A DNA stretch of 64,000 nt. Origin: an uncultured Kiritimatiellota bacterium. Its GTDB lineage: Bacteria > Verrucomicrobiota > Kiritimatiellia > RFP12 > DVOR01. Below are positions 9,672-54,550 of the stretch, piece by piece. A program made the position numbers and the translations under genes. Position 1 is the stretch's first letter. Each line of letters starts with the position of its first letter. The stretch lies in assembly GCA_944389945.1 (NCBI GenBank), contig CALXOF010000004.1, positions 1 through 64,000 on the forward strand, read 5' to 3'. The notes below the pieces were generated by a model. It was not told the DNA's origin and searched no databases. It saw only the letters and a program-made list of their open reading frames with translations.

Positions 9672-12600
9672 ATGGGCATGACATTGGATGAGGTGTTGAC
9701 GCGCTTTCGCGAGGAGGCGCAGGGCAATCTTGCCGCCATGGGGTCCCGCTTCGAGCGGTTGGTGAAACGTCTGCTCACGCAGTTGCCGCTCTACCGGACG
9801 CAGTTCACCCGCGTCTGGCTCTGGTCGGAACTCAACCTCGGTCACGACACAGGCATCGACCTGGTCGCCGAAGACATCCACGGCGAACTCTACGGCATCC
9901 AGGCCAAATGCTACGAAAACGGCCACGTCGTCTCCAAGCCCGACATTGATACCTTCCTCTCCAAGCTCGGCGAGTACCTTCCCTTCGAGGGCGCCAAGCG
10001 CACCTTCGCCCACGGCCTCATCTTCTCCACCACCGATGCTTGGGGCGACAACGCCGAGCGCACGCTCGCCGACCGCCCCATCCCCGTCCAGGTGATGACC
10101 CTCTCGCGCCTCCGCGCCCTCGAGGCCAACTGGGAGGCCCTCGCCGGCCTCACCCCCGGCCCCGCCGTCACCCCCAAATCCCTCCGCGACTACCAACAAG
10201 AGGCCCTCGCGGCCGCCGCCGCACACTATGCCACGCACGACCGCGGCAAACTCATCATGGCCTGCGGCACCGGCAAGACCTTCACCTCCCTGCGCCTCAT
10301 CGAGCAAGAGACCGGCGGCAAGGGCCTCGTCCTCTTCCTCGTCCCCTCCATCGCCCTCCTCAACCAGACCCTCGTGGCCTGGTGCGACGACGCCGCCAAA
10401 CCCCTCCACGCCGTCTGCGTCTGCTCCGACGCCCAGGCCAACCAGCGCATCAAGCGTGGCGAAGACGAACCCGAGGAAGACCCCAACGCCCTGGCCCTGC
10501 CCCCGACCACCCGCCCCGACATCCTCGCCAAACGCATCCGTTACCTCCGCGAGAAATATCCCGACGCCCTCACCGTCGTCTTCTCCACCTATCAATCCAT
10601 CGCCGTCGTCGAGGAGGCCCAGCGCACCTACCTCGGGCGCGACGCCTTCGCCTTCGACTTCGCCGTCTGTGACGAGGCCCACCGTACCACCGGCGCCATC
10701 GCCAAGGAAGAAAAAGAGCCCGCCTTCACCTACATCCACGACGACGCCCACGTCCTCGCCCGCCGCCGCCTCTACATGACCGCCACCCCGCGCCTCTACG
10801 CCGACTCCGCCAAGGTCAAAGCCAAAGAGCGCTCCATCGAACTCTGCTCCATGGACGACGCGGCCCTCTACGGCGAGGAAATCTACCGCATTGGCTTCGG
10901 CACCGCCGTCGCCAAGGGATGCCTCGCGGATTACAAGGTCCTCGTCCTCACCCTTCCCGAGGGCGAACTCCCCGAAGACTCCCCCTACGAGCAGCTCACC
11001 ACCGAGGAGCGCAAGGCCCTCGAAAGCCGCAACGACGACGGCCGCACCACCGCCGTCAAACTCCTGGGCTGCATCAACGCCCTCGCCAAGCGCCTCAAAG
11101 ATTCCCCTCTCCTCACCACCGCCGATGGCGTGCCCGCCCGCCGTGCCGTCGCCTTCTGCCGCACCATCAAGACCTCCAAGGCCACCACCGCCCTCTTCCA
11201 AAAGTTCGCCGCCGACCCGCGCTTCAACACCCCGCTGCGCGTCGAGGCCCGCCACGTCGACGGCGAGATGGGCGCCCTCGCCCGCAACGATGCCCTCGCC
11301 TGGCTCAAGGCCGACGGCGGCCCCGCCGCCTGCCACCTCCTCACCAACGTCCGCTGCCTCTCCGAAGGCGTCGACGTTCCCTCGCTCGATGCCGTCCTCT
11401 TTCTCTCCAAGCGCAACTCCCAGATTGACGTCGTGCAGAGCGTGGGCCGCGTCATGCGCACCGCACCCGGCAAGCGCTACGGCTACATCGTCATCCCCGT
11501 TGTCATCCCTGCGGACAAAGACCCCAAGGAAGAGCTCGACAACTCCGACACCTTCGGCGTCGTCTGGACCGTCCTCAACGCCCTCCGCGCACACGACGAC
11601 CGCTTCGAGGCCACCATCAATAAACTCCGCTTCGATAAGCCCACCAAGGGCGAAACCCTCCCCGGCCCCAACGACCCCATCGACCCCGAGGAGCCCCCCT
11701 CCATCACCATCTCCTCTGGCCTCAGCGTCAATGAGAACGGCGCCTCCCCCTTCGAGCAGGGCGCGCCCGGCGCCATCCAAGACTCCTTCGACCTTCGCTT
11801 CCCCGAGAAGATGGAGCAATACCGCGACCTCCTCTATGGCCGCATCGTCAAAAACTGCGGAGACCGCAAATACTTCGAACGCTGGGCCACCGAGGTCGCC
11901 GCCATCGCCAAACGCCTGGTCGAGACCCTCAAAGCCCGTTGCGTTGCCGACCCCCGCGCCGCGGACACCTTCCACCGCTTCCACGCCCTCCTCCAGACCG
12001 CCGTCTACGCCAACGTCTCGGAAGAAGACGCCCGCGTCATGCTCGTCCAACAACGCATCACCGGCCCCATCTTCGATGCTCTCTTCGGCGGCAACGGCTT
12101 CACCGCCCACAACCCTGTCTCCCAGGCCCTTGACCACGCCTTTGACCTCCTCGCCGCCCTCGACACGGAAGAGGACCGCCGCACCCTCGCCCGCTTCTAC
12201 CAAGACGTCCGCACCCGTGTCGGCGACATCCAGAGCGCAGATGGCAAACTCGAGATTATTCGCACACTCTACGACACCTTCTTCGCCGCCGCCTTCAAGT
12301 CCACCGTTGAAAAACTCGGCATCGTCTTCACCCCCATCGAGGCCGTCGATTTCATCCTCCGCTCCGCCGACGGCGCCCTGCGCAAATACTTCGGTAAACG
12401 CCTCTCCGATGAAGGCGTCCACATCCTCGACCCCTTCACCGGCACGGGCACCTTCATCGCTCGCCTCCTCCAGAAGGACCTCGGCCTTATCCGCGACGAC
12501 GACCTCTACCGCAAGTACACCCAAGAGCTCCACGCCAACGAGATTGTCCTCCTCTCCTACTACATCGCCGCCGTCAACATCGAGAATGTCTTCCACGACC

Positions 12601-14486
12601 GCCAAGGCCGCAAAGAGAAATACTCCGCCTTCCCCGGCATCGTCTTCGGCGACACCTTCCGAATGCGCGAGGTCAAGCCAGACGACCTCCTCGACGACGA
12701 GGAACTCCGACCCAACTCCGAGCGCATCCTCGCCCAAAACAACGCCCCCATCTCCGTCATCGTCGGCAACCCACCCTACTCCGTCGCCAAGGGCGAGAGC
12801 TACCCTTCCCTCAACGAACGTATCGAGGAAACCTACGTCGCCGCCTCCTCCGCCACGAACAAGAACTCCCTCTACGATTCCTACATCAAGGCCTTTCGGT
12901 GGTCCTCCGATGTCATCAAGAACGACCGCGGCGGCGTCCTCTGCTTCATCTCCAACGGCGGTTGGCTCGACTCCAATGCCTGTGATGCCTTCCGCCGTTG
13001 CCTCGTCCAAGAGTTCGACGAAATCTACTGCTACAACCTCCGCGGGAACCAGTACACGCAGGGAGAGGTCTCTAGACGGGAGGGTGGGAAGTTCTTTGAC
13101 GCCGGAAGTCGATGCCCCATCACCATCCTCCTCCTCGTTCGTCTGCCGGCAGGACAACACCACGGCAACGCCACTATCCACTACCGTGACATCGGCGACT
13201 ACAAAACCCGCGAGGAAAAACTCCACGACGTGCTGATGTACGGGTCCTTCCTCAGCGAAGCCTGGCTCGATGGCGCACAAACCATCGTCCCCAATGAACA
13301 CGGCGACTGGATTAACCAACGCAACGACGCCTTCTCCACCTATATCCCCCTCGAACCCACCAAGAAGTTCGACACGCACACCCAGTCCGCCTTCGTGACG
13401 AACAGCAATGGTCAACAAACGAATCGTGATGCCTGGGTTTACAACTTCTCTAAAACGCAGTTACTTGAAAATTGCAAACGTCATATCGAAGCATACAATT
13501 CATGCCTTGGAAAAGCTTTAGAAGAAGATGAAACCAAGTTGCATTGGTCGAGCAGCCTCATAAGCTACCATGAGCGAAACATAGCGCTTTCTTTTAACCG
13601 TGAAACTCCACGTATTGCACACTATCGACCGTTCTCTATCGTATGGTTATATTACGACTCACACCTTAACCATCGTCCATACCAAATCCCCAAGCTCTTC
13701 CCAACGGGGAAACGCGGGGAAAACCTGGTGATTTGTGTGAGTGGCGTAGGAGGGAACAACCCCTTCTCTTGCATCATCACGGACATCACGCCCGACTTGG
13801 AACTTATCGGCAAGAGCCAGTGTTTCCCGCTGTATTGGTATGAAGAGAAAGACGTTGACCTCTTCGGGAAGCGGACGCTCGTGCGGCACGATGGCGTGAG
13901 CGACTGGATTCAACGTCGGGCGGAGCGTCAGTATGGCACGACCGTGACAAAGGAAGAGATTTTCTACTACGTCTACGGCTTCCTCCATCAGCCGACCTAT
14001 CGGGAGGCCTTCGCGGCCGACCTGAAGAAGTCGTTGCCGCGGATTCCGCTGGTGGAGCGCTACGAAGACTTCAAGAAGACCTCCGACATCGGGCGGCAGT
14101 TGGCCGCCCTGCACCTCAATTACGAGACGTTGGAGCCCTATCCGCTAGAGGAAAAGGGCGACTTCTCCGACACGCGGGTGACCAAGATGAAGTTCGGCGG
14201 GAAGGGCGGGAAAGACCGCTCCACCCTCATCGTGAATGGCACACTGACCCTGCGCGGCATTCCCGAAGAGGCCTATCGCTACCAGGTGAATGGCCGCAGT
14301 CCCATCGAGTGGGCAGTGGACCGCTATCAAGTGCGCCAAGACACCAAAAGCGGCATCATCAACGACCCCAACCTCTGGGCCCCGGACAACCCGCGCTACA
14401 TCCCCGACCTCATCAAGCGCCTCGTCACCCTCTCCATCGACTCCCTCAACCTCATCAATGCCCTCCCACCCTTCACCGCCGAGTGA
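9672..14486 (+). CDS. Type ISP restriction-modification enzyme (nuclease + helicase + N6-adenine methyltransferase + target recognition in one chain)
   Basis: Cuts foreign DNA and methylates its own target with one 1604-aa polypeptide. Domains in order: Mrr-like nuclease (D63 in GIDLVAED, Q77-A-K79), superfamily 2 helicase (Walker A ACGTGKTF with K202, DEAH at 334-337, MTATPRLY, QSVGRVMRTAPGKRYGY), helical coupler, gamma-class methyltransferase (DPFTGTGTF from D920; catalytic NPPY at 1033-1036), and a C-terminal target-recognition region. This matches the LlaGI/LlaBIII family. The stretch coding for about residues 1249-1336 is clearly AT-richer, with codons unlike the rest, as expected for an exchanged specificity segment. 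No separate S subunit is present or needed. AAGGAGGC lies upstream of ATGs at 9672 and 9678; either may be used. Confidence 0.88.
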   Translation: MGMTLDEVLTRFREEAQGNLAAMGSRFERLVKRLLTQLPLYRTQFTRVWLWSELNLGHDTGIDLVAEDIHGELYGIQAKCYENGHVVSKPDIDTFLSKLGEYLPFEGAKRTFAHGLIFSTTDAWGDNAERTLADRPIPVQVMTLSRLRALEANWEALAGLTPGPAVTPKSLRDYQQEALAAAAAHYATHDRGKLIMACGTGKTFTSLRLIEQETGGKGLVLFLVPSIALLNQTLVAWCDDAAKPLHAVCVCSDAQANQRIKRGEDEPEEDPNALALPPTTRPDILAKRIRYLREKYPDALTVVFSTYQSIAVVEEAQRTYLGRDAFAFDFAVCDEAHRTTGAIAKEEKEPAFTYIHDDAHVLARRRLYMTATPRLYADSAKVKAKERSIELCSMDDAALYGEEIYRIGFGTAVAKGCLADYKVLVLTLPEGELPEDSPYEQLTTEERKALESRNDDGRTTAVKLLGCINALAKRLKDSPLLTTADGVPARRAVAFCRTIKTSKATTALFQKFAADPRFNTPLRVEARHVDGEMGALARNDALAWLKADGGPAACHLLTNVRCLSEGVDVPSLDAVLFLSKRNSQIDVVQSVGRVMRTAPGKRYGYIVIPVVIPADKDPKEELDNSDTFGVVWTVLNALRAHDDRFEATINKLRFDKPTKGETLPGPNDPIDPEEPPSITISSGLSVNENGASPFEQGAPGAIQDSFDLRFPEKMEQYRDLLYGRIVKNCGDRKYFERWATEVAAIAKRLVETLKARCVADPRAADTFHRFHALLQTAVYANVSEEDARVMLVQQRITGPIFDALFGGNGFTAHNPVSQALDHAFDLLAALDTEEDRRTLARFYQDVRTRVGDIQSADGKLEIIRTLYDTFFAAAFKSTVEKLGIVFTPIEAVDFILRSADGALRKYFGKRLSDEGVHILDPFTGTGTFIARLLQKDLGLIRDDDLYRKYTQELHANEIVLLSYYIAAVNIENVFHDRQGRKEKYSAFPGIVFGDTFRMREVKPDDLLDDEELRPNSERILAQNNAPISVIVGNPPYSVAKGESYPSLNERIEETYVAASSATNKNSLYDSYIKAFRWSSDVIKNDRGGVLCFISNGGWLDSNACDAFRRCLVQEFDEIYCYNLRGNQYTQGEVSRREGGKFFDAGSRCPITILLLVRLPAGQHHGNATIHYRDIGDYKTREEKLHDVLMYGSFLSEAWLDGAQTIVPNEHGDWINQRNDAFSTYIPLEPTKKFDTHTQSAFVTNSNGQQTNRDAWVYNFSKTQLLENCKRHIEAYNSCLGKALEEDETKLHWSSSLISYHERNIALSFNRETPRIAHYRPFSIVWLYYDSHLNHRPYQIPKLFPTGKRGENLVICVSGVGGNNPFSCIITDITPDLELIGKSQCFPLYWYEEKDVDLFGKRTLVRHDGVSDWIQRRAERQYGTTVTKEEIFYYVYGFLHQPTYREAFAADLKKSLPRIPLVERYEDFKKTSDIGRQLAALHLNYETLEPYPLEEKGDFSDTRVTKMKFGGKGGKDRSTLIVNGTLTLRGIPEEAYRYQVNGRSPIEWAVDRYQVRQDTKSGIINDPNLWAPDNPRYIPDLIKRLVTLSIDSLNLINALPPFTAE

Positions 14487-14518: not shown

Positions 14519-14705
14519 GGCCCTTTTCGGACCCCTATAAGGGTCGGCCTTGGACCACTATAAGGGTTGACCCTCGACCCTTATAGGGTCTCACCCCCGA
14601 CCCTTATAGTGGTTGACCTCGGACCCTTATAGGGTCTCAGAAAGACCCCTTAAGCGTCTCGCCAAAGACCCTTTTTGGGCCTCCAGAAGGTACTATATAA
14701 TAAGG
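14519..14705 (+). repeat. Palindrome array B, copy 1 (23-bp phased)
   Basis: Seven units, each starting GACC and carrying a small palindrome such as CCCTATAAGGG or CCCTTATAGGG. GACC starts fall at 14530, 14553, 14576, 14599, 14622, 14644 and 14667, i.e. every 22-23 bp. The array ends in TACTATATAATAAGG, resembling the edge palindrome of element A. Related arrays lie at 33087-33195 and 53385-53475. Confidence 0.85.
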
Positions 14706-14753
14706 TAAGGGGGAAGGGTCGGTGAGTTTTCCACGAAAACACGAAGGAGCGCA

Positions 14754-16331
14754 TTAGGCAAGCGGTTCAGCGGCGGTGCCGGTGAGGCGGCGGGTGGCGC
14801 CATCGAAGGAGAGGCCGATGAGGTGGACTTCCTTGCCGCTGTGGCGATAGGGCTCGGCGTAGCCCTTCTCCTTGATTTGAGCGAGGGCCTCTTGAGGCGT
14901 GCCGTCGACCTTGAGTTCGAAGACGAAGACGCGTTCGGGCGTCTCGGCGACCAAGTCGGCGCGGCCCTTGACTTGGCGGTCTTCGGCGGTGACACGGAAG
15001 AAGCCGCTGGCGGTCAGCAGAACGTAGAGGATGCGCTGGAAGGAGAACTCCTGCACGCGCTCCTCTTTGGAGCCGTAGATGAGATGGGCGTAGAGGTCGG
15101 AGAGGTTACCGAAGAAGGTGTCGAAGTCGGCCTGCTTCAAGGCCCGGCAGACCATGCTGAGATAGTGGTTGTCTTCCTTCTGCGCAAATTTCTTGACGAG
15201 CTGGGCGTTGAAGGCACGGCGGACCTCTTCGTCCGGGATACCGAGGGTAAAGACGCCGTCTTGGAAATCTTTGATGGTGAGGTAGCCGCCTTGGTAGAGC
15301 ATGGCAATAGGACGGATATTTTCCAGTCCACAAACGTCCAGGTCTTCCTCCAAAACATCCTCAACGTTCTCGTAGTCCTTCTCAATGAGTTGGTTGTTCG
15401 TGAAGTAGTTGATGACGGTGGAGGTCTGGCCGGTGGAAATCCATGTGCCGAAGAACGCGGGTTCGCAGGCACCAAGCGTTTGGCCGATGGCATAGGGGTT
15501 GTAGACCTTGGTCGTGTTCCATCGGGCGAAACGATAGCCGTTGTACCACCAACGGAGCTTCTCGCGATAATCTTCGTAGGAGAGGCCCATGACCTCGGCG
15601 TGGCGGTGCATCGTCTTAGGGAAGTTAGCCTCCAGCTCCTCGTCGGTGTAGCCAAGGAGCGTGGCATAGCGGCTGTCCATCGTGAGGTCAGTGAGGTTGT
15701 TGAGCGCGGAGAAGACGGAGAGCTGCGTGAACCGCGTGACGCCGGTCATCATCATGAAGCGGATAGCACCGACATTGTTCTTGATTTGGATATAGAAATC
15801 CGAGAGCTCCTGCCGGATGGCTTCGGCCTTTTTGATATCGTTCAGTGCGTGGCCAACGGGCGCGTCATACTCGTCGATGAGGATGACCACGGACTTCTGT
15901 TCCGAGGCCTCCGCCAAGGTTTTGATGGCCCGGCTGAAGTTGGCGCTGGGGAAGTCAGCGTCGTTCCATGCGCATCCGGCCTTGGTCAACGTCTCCTTGA
16001 CGTAACTCCTAAAGTCAATCTTGAAGGTCTCGAGCGTCTCTATTTTGAGGCCTGCGAAGTTGAAGTGGAGGATGGGATAGGACTTCCAGTCGTAGTCCAT
16101 CGTGTCGATGGCGAGGCCCTTGAAGAGTTCGCGTTCGCCGCGGAAGAGACACTCCAAGGTGGAGAGCATCAGCGACTTGCCGAAGCGCCGCGGCCGGGAG
16201 ATGAAGAAGAAGCCATCGCCATCTCGCGTAACAAGCGGATACAACAGCGCCGTCTTGTCCACATAGCGATAGCTCTTCTCCCGCATGACGCGGAAGTCGT
16301 AGGTCCCTTGCGCAATCTTCTCTTCTTCCAT
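14754..16331 (-). CDS. AAA-ATPase / PD-(D/E)XK nuclease family protein
   Basis: A 525-aa member of the 'AAA-ATPase-like plus PDDEXK' proteins common in gut bacteria, whose role is not established. The N-terminal ATPase has FISRPRRFGKSLMLS (K52) and Walker B VVILIDEYDAPV. The C-terminal part has GRADLVAETPERVFVFELKV, the D...E-x-K core of a PD-(D/E)XK nuclease. It lies convergent to the restriction enzyme with palindrome array B between them. A defence or mobile-element role is possible but is only suggested by the neighbourhood. Confidence 0.8.
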   Translation of the reverse strand: MEEEKIAQGTYDFRVMREKSYRYVDKTALLYPLVTRDGDGFFFISRPRRFGKSLMLSTLECLFRGERELFKGLAIDTMDYDWKSYPILHFNFAGLKIETLETFKIDFRSYVKETLTKAGCAWNDADFPSANFSRAIKTLAEASEQKSVVILIDEYDAPVGHALNDIKKAEAIRQELSDFYIQIKNNVGAIRFMMMTGVTRFTQLSVFSALNNLTDLTMDSRYATLLGYTDEELEANFPKTMHRHAEVMGLSYEDYREKLRWWYNGYRFARWNTTKVYNPYAIGQTLGACEPAFFGTWISTGQTSTVINYFTNNQLIEKDYENVEDVLEEDLDVCGLENIRPIAMLYQGGYLTIKDFQDGVFTLGIPDEEVRRAFNAQLVKKFAQKEDNHYLSMVCRALKQADFDTFFGNLSDLYAHLIYGSKEERVQEFSFQRILYVLLTASGFFRVTAEDRQVKGRADLVAETPERVFVFELKVDGTPQEALAQIKEKGYAEPYRHSGKEVHLIGLSFDGATRRLTGTAAEPLA

Positions 16332-16943: not shown

Positions 16944-19900
16944 TCACTCGGCGGAAGGCGGGGTCAGGCGGACCTTGAAGAGGACCGTGCCGGCGGTGGC
17001 ATCGGGCGAAGGCAGCGTCAGCGCGCCATCAGCGCCGACCTCGGCAGTGCCAAGCACATCGCCGGGCTCCGTGCCATCCAGGGTCACGGGCACCAACTCC
17101 ACCTTCACACCGGACTTAAGCGTGAGCGGCGTGGCCTCGCCGTCGGCGCCGGTGAGGGCGGCCGCGACGACTACCTTGCCATCCGCAATCTCAATCGAGG
17201 TGATGGTGAGGTTGCACGCCGCCGTGACCGTGGCCACGCCTTCCTCAACGGTGACGGTGAGCGGGAGGTTCGTGACGCACGCGACCAGGTCGTTGAAGGT
17301 CGCCGTGTCGGCGGACTGTCCATTCAGCGTGAGGGTGACGGAACCCACCGAGGTCACACCCTCGTTCCCCGCCACGGCACCAAGAATCGCCGCCTGGGCA
17401 GCCTCGGAGAAGCCGCCGGCTTCATCGCCCACCACGCCCTCAGGCAGGGGAATGGTAGCCTGAGCTTCCACGGTGATGGCTTTTTCGCCGAAGTCAACGA
17501 GCCAGTTCTCCGCCGTCACGCCGGTGAAAACGATATCGGCAGGCTCCAACCCACCGGACGCAAGCTCGGCGTAGGTTACGAGCGTCTGCGGCTCCTCGGT
17601 GGCAACGAAGTCCGCGGCCAAAGCGATGGTGATAACGGGGGTTTCCGCCTCGTCCACGATGCCCGGCACCGTCAGGGTGCCCTTGATAGCCAGCGGCAGA
17701 CCCGCTGAGAGGTCGAGTGTCGTCCCATCGGCCAAGGTAAGGTTGACAAGGGTCGTGTTCGCGGCGGGGGCCAGCGCTCCGGCCTGGACTTCGATGTTCA
17801 CGCCGACGTTCGCGCCTTCCGCAATGGCGAGCGTACCCGTCCCCGTCTTGACGATGGAGCCGGCGCCGGTCACCGTGCCGGAGACCTCGTCCTTGCTGAA
17901 GGTGGCATAGGTCAGCGTGGCGTTGAGGGTCGTCTCGGCAGGAAGCGTGAGCGCCCCATCACCAACGTACAGGTCACCATTAACCGTCAGCGCGGCAGGT
18001 TCAAACGCCACAATGCCCTCGCTTGCCAAGGTCAGCTGATGTTCGCTCGCGTTGATGGTCAGCGAGGCCGGCGCAGCCGTGTCGACATACACCCGGGCAC
18101 CCTCGGTGGTCGCGGTCAGGACAAGCGACAGGTTCGCCATATCGCCCCGCAGGTAGTCACGGATGATCGGGGGAATCTCCACGTTATTCGCGTCCGTCCA
18201 GACGAGATTTTCCCAGTTGGCAGTACCACTGACCGACGCAGAGAAGGGCTGCGTGAAGTCCTTCGTCAGCACGTAACCGGTGCCGCCAAGATTGCGCACG
18301 CGATAGCCGGCTGGCACACCGGTGAAGGTGAAGTCCGTCACCACAGAGGTAACCAAAACGTAAACATTTGTGGTAGGAGCCGCCGCCTCCGGCAGGTTCA
18401 ACGCGGACAGATCGAGCGCCAACTCCTTCTTACCAGTGAATTCATTAGCAGTGAGGATGAAGTAGCCGACACCCGTGGGCTTGATGGTCGCGCCCTCGGC
18501 GAAGGCAATGGACTTGGCGGTGATGGTGCCATTGCCGCCAAGCGTCCCGGCGACGGTCACCGTATCCGTAATCGCGAGGTTGGAACCTGCAGACCCGGCA
18601 AGCGCCTTGGGCTCCGCCCACACGTAGGTCGCGGCCTCCGTGGGAGGCGTCTGCAACCCAACAATATCCGTATACGGATGATCCAAGTCGACCGTCACTT
18701 CGTTCGTATCACGGGCCAAGACATACCACCCGACTGGAAACTTAGAGGCATCTGCACCGGTAGCCACGTTGTAGCTGTCGAAGGAGATGGTCTTCCCTTC
18801 ACCGGCATCAATCTGGATGAAGGTGCCTTGCGTAAGAGCCGTCTCCGTGCCGAAGGAACCATCCACCGCGTTCGCGGCAGATTCGACGCCACTCACGGCC
18901 ATTCCCTCAAGATTGACCGGCTCACCATCACGGTAAAGCGTGAACTCGGAGATGCTACTAGTGCCAGCCGAAAGCGTCATGAAGGTGACATAGCGGGCGG
19001 AGATGGGCTGAGAAAGGAGGGTGAGCGAGCCATCCGCCGTGACCTCGAGGGAGTCCGCACCGAAGTTCTCCGCTCCGAACGCATAGTCACCGGAGATGGT
19101 GACGGCACCGGCGGCAGGGGTGTCCGCAGGAACGACAACGTTCTCGACAACGTCATTCGCACCGAAGGTGACGTTGGCCCCCGCGACATAGTCCGGCAGA
19201 CCCGTGGCCCAATCACCCGCGCCATTCACCCACGTCAAGTCACCGGAGGGAGCGCCCTCCACGACCTTGAGGGTGGTGCCGTCGACCGCGAGGGCGAGGC
19301 CGGTGGCCAACTCGGCGGAGAAGGCAACGGCATCGGCGGGGCCGGTGGTCCATGTGGCGAGCTCGGTGCCGATGGCAACCTCCGCAGGAAGCGTCACCGG
19401 AATGGTCGCGCCCTCGGCAACGGAGAGCGTATCGAAGGTCACCGCACCGGCAGAGGCATCGATGGACGCACCCTCCTGCAGGGCGATGGCACCCGCAATC
19501 GTACCCGCGCTCTTGATGGCACCGTAAACATTCAGCGTGGTGGAGCCGCTGACCGTGAGCGTGCCGCCCTCGGCAATAGAGACGGGGCCACGACCCAGCG
19601 CATCGGCGGCGGCGGTGTGAAGCAGATTCACGATCTCCGTACCACCGGTGTAGGAGCTATCGACAGAGAACGTGATACGCGTCGCGCCATTGTTTCCAGA
19701 GCCATCGCTGTTGGCATCGGCGACACGAAGCTTCAGCACGCCATCCAGACCATCGGCGACCCCGACATCTCGAATGGAATAACCGTTAGAACTACCCTCC
19801 GTAAAGAGCAGGGTTCCCTTGCCGGAGATACCGCCGGCGAAGTTGGAGGAGTCGCCATTGGAAGAGCCCAAGATGCGCGCAGCCTTCTCGTCCGTCCCAT

Positions 19901-31722: not shown

Positions 31723-32832
31723 TCAAAAGCCGGTGCGGTAGATGTCCATGACCTCCTCGGGGGAGGGCATGGTGCGATAGCGGCGGACGAGCTCAAGGCG
31801 GAGCGGCTCGCGGGTGTAACGCATCAGTTCGTCCTCGCTCGGGGCCTCGGGGGTCGTTCCCATCGTGTCCAAAAGGGCGTCGACCAGACCGTGGAGCTCC
31901 TCGCCAGTGGTCAGGTGCGCGGCATTCAGGATACGCTCGGTGAGCGCGGCGCAGGGGCGCGTCATAAAGTCGAGGTAACCGGCCAAGAGGATGCCGTTGG
32001 CGCGACCGTGGGGGATGCCTTTATAATAGGTAAGCGGATAGCCCATCGCGTGCACCAGGCCCGTGCCCGTCTGCGCGATGACCACGCCGGCCACGGTCGC
32101 GGCGTATTGCAGCTGCGCGAGGTTCACGAAGACACCATGCGCCATGCGCACCAATTCCGGCACGATGGTGCGAACGGCCTCCAATGCCATCATCTCGGTG
32201 AAACGCGAACAGCGCGGGGAATAGGCGCCCTCGATGGCGTGCGACAGCGCGTCCAACGCCGTATCGCTGAGCACCGCGGGGGGCAGGCTGGAGAGGTAAC
32301 GCGCGTCCAAAAGCGCCGTCCGCGGGAAGAGGCTGGGACCGGAGACGTTCTTTTTGGTCTTGGCCTGGTGGTCCGTGATGATGGAATAAGGCGTCACCTC
32401 ACTGCCCGTGCCGCAGGTGGTCGGAACAGCCACGATGGGCAACGCCTTGTCGCCCGGCTCCGGGCGCATCCGGAAGAAGCGTTCCTGGGGCACGTCCATC
32501 GCGGCCGCCCAGGCAATGGCCTTGGCCGCGTCCAGCGGCGAACCGCCGCCGATGCCCACCACGAAGTCGCATCCTTCTTCCTTCGCGCGGGCCACACCGG
32601 CGTAAACTTGGTCTGCATCCGGGTTCGCAGAAATACCATCGAAATGCGTCCATGCCACGCCGCGCGCCTCAAGCGCCGTCTGCACGTCAGCCAATGCGCC
32701 GGAAGCCGCGGCCCCGCCGTGGCCCGTCACCAACAGCGCCTTGTTGCCGCAGGCCCAACGCTCTGCCGCCAGGCGCACGCAATTGGCCCCAGATTCTATC
32801 GTCGTCGGAAGGAAGAAACGCAAGCTGTCCAT
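31723..32832 (-). CDS. Iron-containing alcohol dehydrogenase
   Basis: NAD(P)-dependent alcohol/aldehyde oxidoreductase of the type III family. 369 aa with the nucleotide-binding GIGGGSPLDAAKA, substrate-pocket VPTTCGTGSEVT, and metal ligands in DALSHAIEGAYS, HAMGYPL and IPHGRANG. The exact alcohol cannot be read from sequence. First gene of the operon ADH - M18 peptidase - response regulator - nrdR; a promoter is visible upstream. Confidence 0.93.
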   Translation of the reverse strand: MDSLRFFLPTTIESGANCVRLAAERWACGNKALLVTGHGGAAASGALADVQTALEARGVAWTHFDGISANPDADQVYAGVARAKEEGCDFVVGIGGGSPLDAAKAIAWAAAMDVPQERFFRMRPEPGDKALPIVAVPTTCGTGSEVTPYSIITDHQAKTKKNVSGPSLFPRTALLDARYLSSLPPAVLSDTALDALSHAIEGAYSPRCSRFTEMMALEAVRTIVPELVRMAHGVFVNLAQLQYAATVAGVVIAQTGTGLVHAMGYPLTYYKGIPHGRANGILLAGYLDFMTRPCAALTERILNAAHLTTGEELHGLVDALLDTMGTTPEAPSEDELMRYTREPLRLELVRRYRTMPSPEEVMDIYRTGF

Positions 32833-33060: not shown

Positions 33061-33086
33061 CAACAGGAGCCTTCAGCCCCCTCCGC

Positions 33087-33195
33087 GGCCCCTTAAGGGT
33101 TTCGGGATGGACCACTATAGGGTCTCAACTCCGACCACTATAGTGGTTGACCTCGGACCACTATAGGGTCTCGCGGAGTGCCCTTTTAGGGGGCT
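33087..33195 (+). repeat. Palindrome array B, copy 2 (23-bp phased)
   Basis: Five units starting at 33087, 33110, 33133, 33156 and 33179, exactly 23 bp apart. Cores: CCCTTAAGGG, CCACTATAGGG, CCACTATAGTGG, CCACTATAGGG and CCCTTTTAGGG. Confidence 0.85.
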
Positions 33196-33316
33196 TAGAC
33201 GAGGGAGCTGGGGTGGTTGGCGACAAAGCCGTAGAGCGACCGATGGAGTCCGAGGTGTTTCGCGCCACCCCTTGCGTCTTTGCGGGCGCTTTTCCGACAC
33301 GAAAAAAGGAAAAGCG

Positions 33317-33346
33317 TTGCGCAGGGTCCGTTCTTTTTGTTAGACT
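33317..33346 (+). promoter_or_regulatory. Possible promoter of the H1-like/DksA fusion gene
   Basis: TTGCGC, 18-bp spacer, TAGACT. Moderate match; the leader would be about 65 nt. Confidence 0.4.
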
Positions 33347-33417
33347 TTAATCGTTACGTACAGAAGGTAGGCGAAGACGCCACTGTGATACGGAGCCTAA
33401 AACAAGGAGTGACACCC

Positions 33418-34413
33418 ATGGCCACGACAAAGAAAAACGCTAAACCAGCGAAATCCGCGCCCGCAAAGTCTGCCACCAAGACGACTTCAACCAAGCGTGT
33501 CACCCCCACCGCCAAACCCAAGGCATCCGCAACGAAGGCCGTGGCAAAGAGCACGCCCAAGAAGGCTGACGCAAAGAAGGCCGAGCCCAAGGCCAAGGCC
33601 GTCACGCCGAAGGCCACGCCTAAGAAACCCACTGCGAAGAAGCCAGAGCCCACCAAGGCCAAGGCTCCCGCCAAGGCCAAGACGGCCGCGACAAAGGCTA
33701 CGGCGAAGACCACACCCAAGAAACCCGCCGCGAAAAAGTCCGAGCCGAAGACCAAAGCACCCACCAAGACTAAAGCGACCGCAACGAAGGCTACGGCGAA
33801 GACCACACCCAAGAAGCCCGCCGCGAAAAAGTCCGAGCCGAAGACCAAGGCCCCCACCAAGCCCAAGGCGACCACGACGAAGCGTTCGGCCCAAAAGACG
33901 GAGAAAGCCCCCGTTCCCACCCCTGCCGTTGCAAACAAGGCAGACAAGAAGCCCACGCAGTTGAAGTCCAATTATGGCATCATCCGTCCTTCTGGCGCCA
34001 AAGCGCAGAAGCCCACGACCAAGCCCACCGCTACCAAGTCGCGCCTAAGCGATGCCACCTTGGAAATCTTCCGCAAGCGCCTGCTCGCCGACCGTGCGGC
34101 CATTGAAGCACAACTCAACGCCGCCCGTTCCAATGCTTTGCGTCAAACCGACGAAGAGAATCAAGAAGAAGACGGTTCCAACTCCTTCAACCGCGCCGCC
34201 GACCTCAATCGCGCTGACGATCAGCACAAGCGTCTGCGCGCCATTGACGATGCCCTTCTGGCCATCAAAGAGAAGACCTATGGCATTTGTTCCATGTGCG
34301 GCAAACCCATTCCTCGCGACCGCCTGGAAGCCGCGCCCTTCGCCATCCGTTGCGTCACCTGCAAGGAAATCTGGGAAAAGACCATGGCTAAGGAGCGCAA
34401 CCAGTCGCTCTGA
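33418..34413 (+). CDS. Histone H1-like basic tail fused to a DksA/TraR zinc-finger domain
   Basis: 331 aa in two parts. The first 215 residues are Lys/Ala/Pro/Thr-rich repeats (KKPAAKKSEPKTKAPTK-type units; two are 31-residue copies 93 bp apart at 33697 and 33790) like histone H1 tails and chlamydial Hc proteins. The last 110 residues are a DksA/TraR-type domain: a coiled-coil hairpin (LSDATLEIFRKRLLADRAAIEAQ split), then a zinc finger C-S-M-C...C-V-T-C (GICSMCGKPIPRD, IRCVTCKEIW). DksA proteins act on RNA polymerase; the tail would bind DNA or RNA. Start chosen at ATG 33418 with AAGGAG 9 nt upstream; the open frame before it is not coding-like. Followed by a terminator. Confidence 0.85.
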   Translation: MATTKKNAKPAKSAPAKSATKTTSTKRVTPTAKPKASATKAVAKSTPKKADAKKAEPKAKAVTPKATPKKPTAKKPEPTKAKAPAKAKTAATKATAKTTPKKPAAKKSEPKTKAPTKTKATATKATAKTTPKKPAAKKSEPKTKAPTKPKATTTKRSAQKTEKAPVPTPAVANKADKKPTQLKSNYGIIRPSGAKAQKPTTKPTATKSRLSDATLEIFRKRLLADRAAIEAQLNAARSNALRQTDEENQEEDGSNSFNRAADLNRADDQHKRLRAIDDALLAIKEKTYGICSMCGKPIPRDRLEAAPFAIRCVTCKEIWEKTMAKERNQSL

Positions 34414-50649: not shown

Positions 50650-53265
50650 ATGGATGAAGAGACGCAGGTGAGCCCGGCGGCGGACACGCGATTGACCTCA
50701 ATCAACGTCGAGGAGGAGATGAAGAGCTCCTACATCGACTACTCGATGAGCGTCATCGTGGCGCGTGCCCTGCCGGACGCGCGTGATGGGTTCAAGCCGG
50801 TGCACCGGCGCGTGCTCTACTCGATGCACGAGAACAAGAACTTCTTCAACGCGCCTTACCGCAAGTGCGCCCGCGTGGTGGGTGACGTGATGGGTAAGTA
50901 TCACCCGCACGGCGACAGCTCCATCTATGACACGCTGGTGCGCCTGGCCCAGTGGTTCAGCATGCGCGAAAAGCTCGTGGACGGCCACGGCAACTTCGGC
51001 ACCATCGACGGCGACGGCGCGGCGGCTTACCGTTACACCGAGGCCCGCCTGGCGAAGATCTCCAACGAGATGCTCGCCGACATCGACAAAGACACCGTCG
51101 ACTTCATCCCGAACTACGACAACACCACGGTGGAGCCGCGCGTCCTCCCCGCCAAGTTGCCCAACCTCCTTCTGAACGGCTCCCAGGGCATCGCCGTGGG
51201 CATGGCCACCAACATTCCGCCGCACAACCTGCGCGAACTCTGCGACGGCCTCATCCACTTTGTGGCCCACCCCGACGCCTCCATCGATGAGCTCATGCAG
51301 TTCGTCAAGGGCCCCGACTTCCCCACCGGCGCCCTCATCTGCGGCCGCTCCGGCATCGAGGCGATGTACAAGACCGGCCGCGGCTCCATCACCGTGCGCG
51401 GCGAGGCCGAGGTCGTCCAAGACGGCAAGCATGAGTCCATCCTCATTACCTCCATCCCTTACATGGTCAACAAGTCCGCGATGGTCGCCAAGATGGCCGA
51501 GCTCGTCAAGACCGGCGTCATCGAGGGCATCGCCGACATCCGCGACGAGACCAGCCTGAAGGACGGCATCCGCGTCGTCATCGAGCTGAAGCAGAACGCC
51601 AAGCCCGGCGCCGTCATCCTCAACCAGCTCTATAAGCATAGTGACCTGCAGACCACCTTCGGCGCAAACATGATCGCCCTCGACCACGGGCGCCCGCGCC
51701 GCATGACCCTGCGCGACTTCTTCCAGTGCTACGTCGATCACCGCTTCGAGGTGCACACCCGCCGCTGCCGCTTCGAGCTCGCCAAGGCCAAGGAGCGCCT
51801 CCACATCGTCGACGGCCTCCTCATCGCCCAGGACAACCTCGACGAGGTCATCCACATCATCCGCGACTCCAAGACCAACGACGAGGCCAAGTCCCGCCTC
51901 TGCGAGCGCTTCGGTTTCTCCGATGCCCAGGTCACCGCCATCCTCGAGATGCGCCTCCGCCAGCTCACCGGCCTCGAGCGCGACAAGCTTCTCGCCGAAC
52001 AGGCCGACCTCCGTGCCAAGATCGCCGAGCTCCAGTCCATCCTCGAAGACCCCGCCAAGGTCTTTGCCCTCATCACCAAGGACCTCGAGGACATCAAGGC
52101 CGCCTACACCAAGGAGGGTGACCGCCTCACCAAGATCGTCCCCATGGCCGGCGATGTCAACTTCGAGGACCTCGTGGCCGACGAACCCTGCGTCGTCACC
52201 CTCTCCCACCGCGGCTACGTCAAGCGCACCGCCCTCTCCGTCTACGCCGCCCAGAAGCGCGGCGGCAAGGGCAAGAAGGGCGTCCTCATCAAGGACGAAG
52301 ACTTCATCGAGCGCGTCTACGTCCCCCTGGCGCACGACACCCTCCTCTTCTTCACCGACACCGGCCGCGTCTACGCCGAGCGCGCCTTCGAGATTCCCGA
52401 GACCAGCCGCACCTCCGCCGGCACGCCTATCGTGAATGTCATCGAGGGCCTCCAGAAGGAAGAGCGCATCGTCGACATCCTCTCCATCCGCGGCTTCGAC
52501 GAGGATCGCTCCATCACCTTCGTCCTGTCCGACGGCACCATCAAGCGCACCGCGCTAGCCGACTACCGCAACGTCAACCGCCGCGGCATCATCGCCATCA
52601 ATATCGAGGAAGGCAACGCCCTCGTCAAGGTCGCCCTCACCCGCCCCGGCGACGTCGCCTTCATCGCCACCCGCGAGGGCCGCGTCAACGCCTTCAAGCT
52701 CGACGAGGTCCGCGAGATGGGCCGTGCCGCCACCGGCGTCATCGGCATCCGCTTCAAGGTGCCCGGCGACCGCGTTTGCGGTTTCGCCGTCCAAGAGGAA
52801 GGCGCCCAGATGCTCATGGTCACCGAAAACGGCCGTGGCAAGCGCAGCGACTTCTCCGACTTCTACGTCAACCAGGAAGACGGCACGCTCCGTCTGAACC
52901 ACCGCGGCTCCATGGGCGTTATCGCCAACCCCGTCAGCGAGAAGAACGGCAAGCTCATCGGCATCGCCGCCGTCAAGGGCGACGAGACCATCGTCTTCCT
53001 CACCACCGCCGGCCTCATGATTCGCACCCGCGTGGACGAGATTCCCACCCATGGCCGCACCGCCGCCGGCGTCAAGTTCCTCACCCTCCCCGAGGACGTC
53101 ACCCTCGCCACCTTCTCCTTGGCCCCCGCCGAGGATGAGGATGAGCCTGCGCCCGAAGGAACCACGGAACCCGCCGCCGAAGGCTCCGAGGAAGCCCCCG
53201 CCAAACCCGCATCCGAGGCCAACCCCGATAGCGACCCTGCCCCAACGGACGGCCAAGACGCCTAA
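50650..53265 (+). CDS. gyrA: DNA gyrase subunit A
   Basis: Breaks and rejoins DNA in the A2B2 gyrase, giving negative supercoils. 871 aa with catalytic Y129 (AAAYRYTEAR). The quinolone-resistance region reads HPHGDSSIYD: S90 and D94 match the sensitive-type Ser83 and Asp87 of E. coli. The C-terminal beta-pinwheel has a gyrase box QKRGGKG (535-541), which separates GyrA from ParC. The tail is acidic and Pro/Ala-rich (EDEDEPAPEGTTEPAAEG), as in GyrA proteins whose tail tunes supercoiling. AAAGGA lies upstream. gyrB is not adjacent. Confidence 0.97.
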   Translation: MDEETQVSPAADTRLTSINVEEEMKSSYIDYSMSVIVARALPDARDGFKPVHRRVLYSMHENKNFFNAPYRKCARVVGDVMGKYHPHGDSSIYDTLVRLAQWFSMREKLVDGHGNFGTIDGDGAAAYRYTEARLAKISNEMLADIDKDTVDFIPNYDNTTVEPRVLPAKLPNLLLNGSQGIAVGMATNIPPHNLRELCDGLIHFVAHPDASIDELMQFVKGPDFPTGALICGRSGIEAMYKTGRGSITVRGEAEVVQDGKHESILITSIPYMVNKSAMVAKMAELVKTGVIEGIADIRDETSLKDGIRVVIELKQNAKPGAVILNQLYKHSDLQTTFGANMIALDHGRPRRMTLRDFFQCYVDHRFEVHTRRCRFELAKAKERLHIVDGLLIAQDNLDEVIHIIRDSKTNDEAKSRLCERFGFSDAQVTAILEMRLRQLTGLERDKLLAEQADLRAKIAELQSILEDPAKVFALITKDLEDIKAAYTKEGDRLTKIVPMAGDVNFEDLVADEPCVVTLSHRGYVKRTALSVYAAQKRGGKGKKGVLIKDEDFIERVYVPLAHDTLLFFTDTGRVYAERAFEIPETSRTSAGTPIVNVIEGLQKEERIVDILSIRGFDEDRSITFVLSDGTIKRTALADYRNVNRRGIIAINIEEGNALVKVALTRPGDVAFIATREGRVNAFKLDEVREMGRAATGVIGIRFKVPGDRVCGFAVQEEGAQMLMVTENGRGKRSDFSDFYVNQEDGTLRLNHRGSMGVIANPVSEKNGKLIGIAAVKGDETIVFLTTAGLMIRTRVDEIPTHGRTAAGVKFLTLPEDVTLATFSLAPAEDEDEPAPEGTTEPAAEGSEEAPAKPASEANPDSDPAPTDGQDA

Positions 53266-53320: not shown

Positions 53321-53384
53321 TCCCCCTCGCTTATCACTCCTTCAGTTCGGTATCACGGATGGGCCTCTAGAACCCTCTTTCTGA

Positions 53385-53475
53385 GACCCTATAAGGGTTG
53401 ACCTCCGACCACTATAGTGGTTGACCTCCGACCACTATAGGGTCTCAATCCCGACCCTTAAGGGTCTCTCCAACA
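53385..53475 (+). repeat. Palindrome array B, copy 3 (23-bp phased)
   Basis: GACC starts at 53385, 53407, 53430 and 53453. Cores: CCCTATAAGGG, CCACTATAGTGG, CCACTATAGGG and CCCTTAAGGG. The flank to 53650 is otherwise featureless apart from a short word repeat. Confidence 0.85.
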
Positions 53476-53710: not shown

Positions 53711-54550
53711 TCAAGGCTCAAGCGGAGCAGGGGGCAAGTCGGTATGGAGGGAGACCAGGGAGATGCCGTAGCGGTTTGCCAATTCCACAACGCGCGGACG
53801 ATTAATCATCACCAAACGATGCGCCTGGAAGGCGACCGCGGAGACCCCACACTTGTGGCAAAGGCGCACCGTGTGCTCCCCAAAGACAGGAATATCGAAA
53901 CGCATATCGTGACCGGCCTTGGCGACCTTCACCATCACCGCGCCCTTGCCGCCGAGCTTCGCCCCGCGGCGCACGGTTGCGTTCGTACCCTCAAAGGCCT
54001 CGACGGCCAAGACCATGCCTTCCTTCACCAAAATCGTCTGGCCGATATCCAGTCCGCAGACCCCCATCGCGGCCTCGTGGCCGAAGCGGATGTCCTGTTC
54101 CTCGCGGGCATCCGGCGCACGCGCCGTGAGCACCCCCTCACCGGGGATATGCGCCCCCATGAAACACGAAGAGGGAATCACCTGCACACCGCGCGCCTCC
54201 ACCTCTTGGATGATACGGCCAAAGATGGAATGCGCGTTCTTGATGGGAAGCTCAGAAAGAATCCGGCGCGTCAAGGCATCGAAGCGCGTACGGAACAGTG
54301 CCAACGGCGTGATTTGGCCCACCAAGAGCATATGGCGCACCCCGCACCGCTCCAGCCAATCCAAGGCGTGCCCCAATTCCCCCGCGCCAAAGACGACAGA
54401 TTCATCCGCCGCACGAAGCACCCGCCGCTCCACCATGCCACGCACGCCAATGACGACAATACGCCGCACGCCTGCCGCACGGGCACCGGCCAACGCACAC
54501 GCAGGGTAATCCCCGCGCCCGGCCAACAACACCAAAGAATCCGGAATCAT
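53711..54550 (-). CDS. lpxI: UDP-2,3-diacylglucosamine pyrophosphatase LpxI
   Basis: Cleaves UDP-2,3-diacylglucosamine to lipid X and UMP in lipid A synthesis; it replaces LpxH in bacteria that lack it. 279 aa, family length. N-terminus DSLVLLAGRGDYPACALAGARA; family segments LLVGQITPLALFR, GVLTARAPDAREEQDIRFGHE, GTNATVRRGAKLGGKGAVMVKVAK is split, and the end FGEHTVRLCHKCGVSAVAFQA. It shows that the organism makes lipid A. The ftsB-like gene ends 13 nt upstream, so the two are co-transcribed. Confidence 0.93.
   Translation of the reverse strand: MIPDSLVLLAGRGDYPACALAGARAAGVRRIVVIGVRGMVERRVLRAADESVVFGAGELGHALDWLERCGVRHMLLVGQITPLALFRTRFDALTRRILSELPIKNAHSIFGRIIQEVEARGVQVIPSSCFMGAHIPGEGVLTARAPDAREEQDIRFGHEAAMGVCGLDIGQTILVKEGMVLAVEAFEGTNATVRRGAKLGGKGAVMVKVAKAGHDMRFDIPVFGEHTVRLCHKCGVSAVAFQAHRLVMINRPRVVELANRYGISLVSLHTDLPPAPLEP

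Follow-up and report, generated by a model that had tools for sequence, protein, structure and literature searches.

What is the role of short palindromes that recur every 22-23 bp, in small clusters, between the genes of a bacterium? The question is raised by a 64,000-nucleotide stretch of DNA (the window) from contig CALXOF010000004.1 of an uncultured Kiritimatiellota bacterium, in which an earlier note, made from the window only, had described three such arrays. All three were located by sequence on the + strand, at positions 14530..14682 (array 1), 33087..33191 (array 2) and 53385..53466 (array 3), with successive units mostly 23 bp apart and occasionally 22 or 24 bp. The even spacing of the arrays, the conservation of their positions and the arrays of related species, all reported below, lie beyond the window. 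Our best reading, held with somewhat less than even confidence, is that these are arrays of cooperative binding sites for a putative protein that binds DNA as a dimer, evolves fast and has a role at chromosome scale, in the nucleoid.

Organization of the Units and Arrays

The units share a common form in which GACC is followed by 6-8 bp centred on TATA or TTAA, by GGTC or GGTT, and then by a 6-nt spacer. A genome-wide search for phased dyads, proposed as a check in the earlier note, found the same units hundreds of times in the genome that holds the window (G000, a 2.33-Mb draft in 34 contigs, 92% complete). Counted as exact strings, GACCACTATAGTGGTTGACCT occurs 97 times, GACCACTATAGGGTCTC 252 times and GACCNNTATAGGGTC 319 times, with zero occurrences for each of the reversed patterns. 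A position weight matrix (PWM) trained on other loci of G000 and then chained across the window returned exactly the three arrays (scores 132, 104 and 87), and no chain scoring at least 18 was found in the reversed window that served as the control.

An alignment of 70 arrays on the GACCACTATAGTGG unit revealed a canonical order of units, namely (weak CCNNAAAGGG) - CCCTTAAGGG - CCACTATAGGG - CCACTATAGTGG - CCACTATAGGG - (weak CCCTTNNGGG). The information content of this alignment peaks at the centre, declines outwards and is near zero more than about 70 bp from the centre. The suggestion that all the dyads share one side of the DNA does not hold, as B-DNA has 10.5 bp per turn and 23 bp therefore amounts to 2.19 turns rather than a whole number, leaving an offset of about 70 degrees between successive dyads.

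Number and Spacing of the Arrays

A total of 62 arrays, including degenerate ones recovered in apparent gaps, were found in 969 kb representing the five largest contigs of G000, where the positions were taken from search matches and retrieved stretches. By extrapolation the entire genome is estimated to carry about 150 arrays, and every contig of at least 100 kb was observed to have them. The mean gap between the 62 arrays is 14.7 kb with a coefficient of variation (CV) of 0.496, compared to 0.951 expected for random placement and 0.904 for random choice among the real intergenic gaps, where the minimum in 5000 trials was 0.596 (P below 1/5000). Gaps shorter than 5 kb are correspondingly scarce, with three observed against 16.2 expected at random or 14.6 when only intergenic sites are allowed. 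Four array-free gaps of 27-39 kb were found, three of which contain stretches of lower G+C content (0.58 in L050, 0.51 in L061 and 0.61 in L060, compared to about 0.64); the remaining irregularity may in part be due to foreign DNA, which is suggestive only. Even spacing was also observed in the array-rich sister species G005 described below, where 40 arrays, with one unit type listed, have a CV of 0.55 compared to 0.93 expected (P 0.00025).

Two alternative explanations draw on this spacing. According to the first, supercoiling is managed at the arrays, about every 15 kb, because gyrase or topoisomerase prefers them as sites or because their bent DNA forms a barrier. This would be analogous to the bacterial interspersed mosaic element BIME-2 of E. 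coli and would call for no dedicated binding protein. The arrays' length of 70-160 bp, phased TATA steps, intergenic and orientation-neutral placement and even spacing are all consistent with this explanation, and BIME-2 elements are likewise dispersed intergenic palindromic clusters that are thought to act on supercoiling, although the arrays have another sequence and frame. However, gyrase is conserved, yet the dyad varies among species within one genus, and the frame of exactly 23 bp is maintained together with a defined dyad of 12-18 bp; we consider this explanation quite unlikely. The second is that the cell would use the arrays to recognise its own DNA in uptake or exchange, in the manner of uptake signal sequences and DNA uptake sequences (USS/DUS). 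Such marks differ between species, having a lineage-specific dialect, and are spaced significantly evenly around the chromosome; PMC1939737 credits the observation of even spacing, in the USS of Haemophilus, to Karlin and colleagues. USS/DUS are, on the other hand, short single motifs (10-mers) present in thousands of copies and largely within genes, whereas about 150 multi-unit arrays with a strictly intergenic location are seen here, and this explanation is hardly credible.

Placement Relative to Genes

Almost all of the sampled arrays (68 of 70) are intergenic, based on genes predicted by a codon-usage caller. The earlier note had placed them between genes and next to gene ends; the first part stands, while the link to gene ends does not, as every gene arrangement was found around the arrays. 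Seventeen lie between convergent genes, fifteen between divergent genes and 35 between tandem genes, with the array on the gene strand in fourteen and on the opposite strand in 21 of the latter. The array strand also showed no association with the local GC skew (37 of 70), and a polarity like that of the FtsK orienting polar sequences (KOPS) was rejected on this basis. Taken together, the placement and strand statistics argue against a general role of the arrays as terminators, 3' untranslated region (3'UTR) elements, operators of promoters or polar signals of replication.

These counts bear directly on the possibility that the arrays act as RNA, either as 3'UTR stabilisers, as bidirectional terminators or as processing hairpins of the adjacent transcripts. 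The arrays do fold strongly as RNA, and more so on the + strand. Nevertheless, fifteen of the 67 classified arrays lie between divergent genes, the tandem cases do not favour the strand of the neighbours, no T run follows the hairpin and an RNA role would not yield even spacing. The terminator or 3'UTR element was rejected on the orientation statistics, and a role as RNA in general is very unlikely.

Another comparison is with the operator arrays of cooperative regulators, which share with the arrays a tandem layout of dyads at about two helical turns, as well as degenerate outer bases and free linkers. The difference lies in the distribution, as about 150 copies are present here, evenly spaced among genes of all orientations, which argues against a promoter-linked regulon in G000.

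Conservation in Related Species

Arrays of this kind also turned up in a public collection, in the record of the uncultured Kiritimatiellaeota bacterium BRZ_EK__bin27. Based on its array content, copy number and protein identity, we take this record to be probably that of G005, which is the sister species rich in arrays within the set of genomes searched. At shared loci, most of its proteins have 87-100% identity to their G000 counterparts, and the arrays use the same vocabulary in another mixture, with GACCCTTATAGGGT as the commonest unit. When the arrays of G005 were compared through their flanking genes, the orthologous intergenic gap of G000 was found to contain an array in nine of the eleven clear cases but not in the other two, and three more cases were ambiguous. 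The G000 sequence used in this comparison is biased towards array loci, yet array-free stretches (about 340 kb) make up the larger part of it, so the absence of a G000 array had a fair chance to show. At the shared positions the flanks align and the arrays differ by swaps of half-site type and by the gain or loss of whole units of about 23 bp. Downstream of the array at L076:5662-5745, the alignment also showed a further short insertion (the GGCCTTAAAAAGGTAAATGCATTCTCGAAGTGGCCC region) in G005 that is absent from G000.

Among 346 genomes of the class, the exact family was found only in G000, G005 and G004, three species of one genus, and no copies of the G000 array family were found in the viral contigs, phages and plasmids searched. 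One array of G004 lies at a site where G000 retains one degenerate unit. A second G004 array with G000-type units (L107:1466-1550) adjoins genes that, read by eye, resemble Cas4 and Cas7, and may have arrived with a CRISPR locus. We also considered whether more distant sisters carry another family at the same positions, which was rejected, as the arrays of G013, G015 and G016 lie mostly outside the gaps orthologous to G000 arrays. Positional conservation is thus claimed only between G000 and G005 and for the one G004 site.

Folding of the Arrays and a Possible Mobile Origin

The arrays of G000 fold as single long hairpins, with mean z-scores for 25 canonical arrays of -6.1 (+ strand) and -4.6 (opposite strand). 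The pairing of half-sites from different units, which had been suggested from the window, thus extends over entire arrays. Folding energy alone says little since arrays of near-palindromic units always fold well. The outermost flanks, however, covary (TTTCT/AGAAA and CTCCGC/GCGGAG; P ~0.001), and this covariation is the real argument for the hairpin. It is also the main support for the principal rival of the binding-site reading, according to which the arrays descend from an old miniature element of the type of repetitive extragenic palindrome (REP) doublets forming hairpins (REPINs) or miniature inverted-repeat transposable elements (MITEs). The palindromes would then be the stem of a hairpin that was amplified by a transposase, now lost or unrecognised, and was thereafter inherited vertically. 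A four-unit cassette that is nearly identical in 51 of the 70 sampled arrays suggests amplification or conversion.

The earlier note had named the ends of a known transposon, or a known REP/BIME family with a partner transposase, as the finding that would overturn its view of the arrays, and this was followed up. No match to the RAYT/Y1 transposase (PF01797) was found in G000 (92% complete) or G005 (95% complete), although other genomes of the order do match. Direct repeats in the flanks were no better than in permuted controls and thus gave no sign of a target-site duplication, and the only candidate for an empty site is rearranged and not clean. The ends of the arrays are not sharp, as the outer units fade gradually.

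The arrays are similar to REP, BIME and REPIN elements in having hundreds of intergenic palindromic units in small clusters that can form hairpins, with a species-specific sequence. Apart from the missing RAYT, they differ in lacking the GTAG/CGTC tag, by which REP classes are defined in a section of PMC3733652; the consensus unit here starts with GACC and ends with GGTC or GGTT. The units also run head to tail in a 23-bp frame with hybrid half-sites, whereas REPs occur as alternating or inverted pairs. On the inverted doublet of a REPIN, which forms a long hairpin, the observations point both ways, as a G000 array does fold as one hairpin but is built of head-to-tail units. REPINs are scattered at random through extragenic space (PMC3116915), in contrast to the even arrays described here (CV 0.496 compared to 0.904), and the positions of the arrays are conserved between species and change by units of about 23 bp. 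Finally, the linkers in the related genome G013 are unpaired and no long hairpin is kept there. On balance an old REPIN-like or MITE-like element is a rather unlikely account of the arrays, although it is the main rival, and a mixed history with an ancient mobile origin and a present role as binding arrays may apply.

Other Array Families in the Genus and Class

G013, which belongs to the same genus, was found to have a family of its own with about ten arrays, mostly consisting of four ACCCTATAGGGT units exactly 23 bp apart, that is absent from the other 16 genomes of the genus. Its core is related to the CCCTATAGGG half-sites of G000. The spacers show degenerate RRY/RYY triplets beside the dyad and five free central bases, and the first and third spacers are not complementary (0.75 of 5 matches, where 1.25 is expected by chance). 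Protein sites of about 18 bp that are separated by free linkers show this pattern, which speaks against the view that a long hairpin is what is conserved.

An ab initio scan of stretches from 16 genomes of the class for periods of 15-35 bp found eleven dyad-rich intergenic clusters at period 22 and twelve at period 23, compared to eight at period 18 and zero to three at every other period. In more distant families, pairs of TTCCAANNNTTGGAA at 22 bp were found in 23 of the 346 genomes with up to 142 pairs per genome, whereas the reversed control gave zero. These palindromes have a variable centre and occur at steps of 22 and 30-31 bp (L216:7074-7269 in G090, L217, L222 and others); no paper on them was found in the literature. 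Their kinship with the G000 arrays is uncertain, as the 30-31 bp steps occur as well.

Several further repeats were observed in the genus. G013 has two more types of dyad arrays phased at 22-23 bp, GGCTATAGCC (two copies) and TTCATACCAGTATGAA (L132:2023-2116, L133:11751-11848 and L129:724-814), as well as non-palindromic TTCAAAAGTGGGCGTAAACC repeats at 22 bp (L121:7283-7381 and L135:10619-10718) that are like the multiple transposase-binding repeats of insertion sequence ends. AT-rich arrays phased at 22-23 bp were seen in G016, with the CAATNTCRGCGAAATTG type in three loci and AAATCCAATGGATTT repeated (L124:6999-7109, L137:9018-9149, L139:14810-14944 and L141:8714-8848). G015 has phased CCCTAAGG units and a GACCCTTAAGGGTTTCG copy that exactly matches the unit at the edge of the G000 arrays (L143:2875-2943 and 19369-19472).

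The Three Arrays of the Window and Their Neighbours

The window has a G+C content of about 62%. Array 1 consists of five strong and two weak units, with GACC boxes at 14530, 14553, 14576, 14599, 14622, 14644 (weak) and 14668 (weak), and is covered by a PWM chain at 14526-14640 (score 131.8; RNA fold z -7.05). It had been described as lying between a restriction enzyme and an AAA/nuclease gene, and Pfam agrees: a Type ISP restriction-modification enzyme is encoded at 9672..14486 on the + strand (Type_ISP_C 5.6e-107, with ISP_coupler, ResIII and Mrr_cat_2), and a protein with AAA-ATPase_like and PDDEXK_9 domains, that is, an AAA-ATPase/PD-(D/E)XK protein, at 14754..16331 on the - strand (1.9e-51 and 9.4e-17). 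A companion motif, TACCTTATTATATAG, is present at 14692-14712 and also in L008, L027, L152, L167 and others; it is enriched within 300 bp of arrays, with eleven copies in 42 kb compared to three in 53 kb of other intergenic DNA.

Array 2 shows the canonical order CCCTTAAGGG / CCACTATAGGG / CCACTATAGTGG / CCACTATAGGG followed by a weak CCCTTTTAGGG unit, with exact matches genome-wide. Its GACC boxes are at 33087, 33110, 33133, 33156 and 33179 (weak), and the PWM chain spans 33083-33174 (score 104; fold z -4.90). It is flanked by genes for an iron-containing alcohol dehydrogenase (31723..32832, - strand; Fe-ADH 9.8e-48) and a DksA/TraR zinc-finger protein (33280..34413, + strand; zf-dskA_traR 1.2e-11). 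Array 3 has the four units CCCTATAAGGG, CCACTATAGTGG, CCACTATAGGG and CCCTTAAGGG with GACC boxes at 53385, 53407, 53430 and 53453 (PWM chain 53381-53448, score 87.2), and is located between the genes of DNA gyrase/topoisomerase IV subunit A (50650..53265, + strand; DNA_topoisoIV 3.3e-161) and LpxI (53711..54550, - strand; LpxI_C 6.2e-41).

A Proposed Role in Chromosome Organization

We prefer the reading as cooperative binding-site arrays because of the even spacing, the placement relative to genes, the vertical maintenance, the site logic seen in G013, the peak at periods 22 and 23 and the occurrence on chromosomes only. Each array would provide three to seven tandem sites for a putative dimeric, sequence-specific protein, whose dimers would occupy the dyads GACC-(AT-rich, 6-8 bp)-GGTC every 23 bp. 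Neighbouring dimers would touch and join cooperatively into a single nucleoprotein complex, about 70-160 bp long, that, judging from the geometry of the 23-bp step, would wind gently round the DNA instead of following one face. At roughly even intervals of about 15 kb, such complexes may serve a chromosome-scale purpose rather than the control of adjacent genes, most likely nucleoid organisation (by anchoring loops or bordering topological domains) or a marking of the chromosome similar to nucleoid occlusion. The dyad would drift together with its binder, giving other dyads in the relatives within the same 22-23 bp frame.

Several observations weigh against this reading. Long hairpins with covarying outer flanks are not required of simple operators. 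The commonest unit of G000, GACC-AC-TATA-G-GGTC, is an imperfect palindrome, being a hybrid of two half-site types (GACCACTATA and GAGACCCTATA) in which the distance from GACC to TATA differs by one base; a chain scan for perfect dyads missed most of the G000 arrays because such hybrids are not palindromic. Dense even coverage is not general either, with only about ten arrays of the main family in 2 Mb of G013, and most other genomes of the class are without these sequences. Lastly, a search for an extra ParB/Noc binder, in which TetR/SlmA-type and other binders were not included, found one chromosomal ParB, a weak ParB_N match in G005 and a second match in G000 that lies among prophage-like genes; a Noc-like ParB paralogue was rejected as the binder on the latter ground. 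The prophage-like region with this ParB_N protein (L235; contig C13, 20-30 kb) contains no array.

The nearest functional analogy is provided by the sites of the nucleoid occlusion proteins, which are many, palindromic, dispersed over the chromosome and bound by a sequence-specific protein. About 70 Noc-binding sites (NBS) of 14 bp are present in B. subtilis and 24-52 SlmA-binding sites (SBS) in E. coli (PMC4726725). They are depleted near the terminus, and they differ from the phased arrays found here in being single sites. The view that no repeat like these arrays has been described was supported to the extent that no described repeat could be matched to the dispersed family of phased dyad arrays and that nothing relevant on the motif or on Kiritimatiellae repeats was found in the literature. 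To our knowledge, evenly spaced, sequence-specific multi-site arrays across a whole bacterial chromosome are rare, and the dispersed nucleoid sites known so far occur singly and at uneven distances.

There is a distinct chance that the arrays, here taken as dispersed intergenic repeats of a new variety, represent a new kind of chromosome-organising site. A bolder proposal, which we regard as possible but doubtful, is that of a chromosome-organising system in which multi-dyad complexes at even distances, built on an unchanging frame of 22-23 bp, measure out domains of about 15 kb like a ruler, while the binder and the dyad co-evolve so fast that each lineage in the class has its own sequence. 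If a protein does build complexes at the arrays, the Kiritimatiellae would be a natural system in which the borders of chromosome domains are written in the DNA, and this would allow direct tests of what determines domain spacing and of the reasons for such a rapid shift in the binding dialect between related species.
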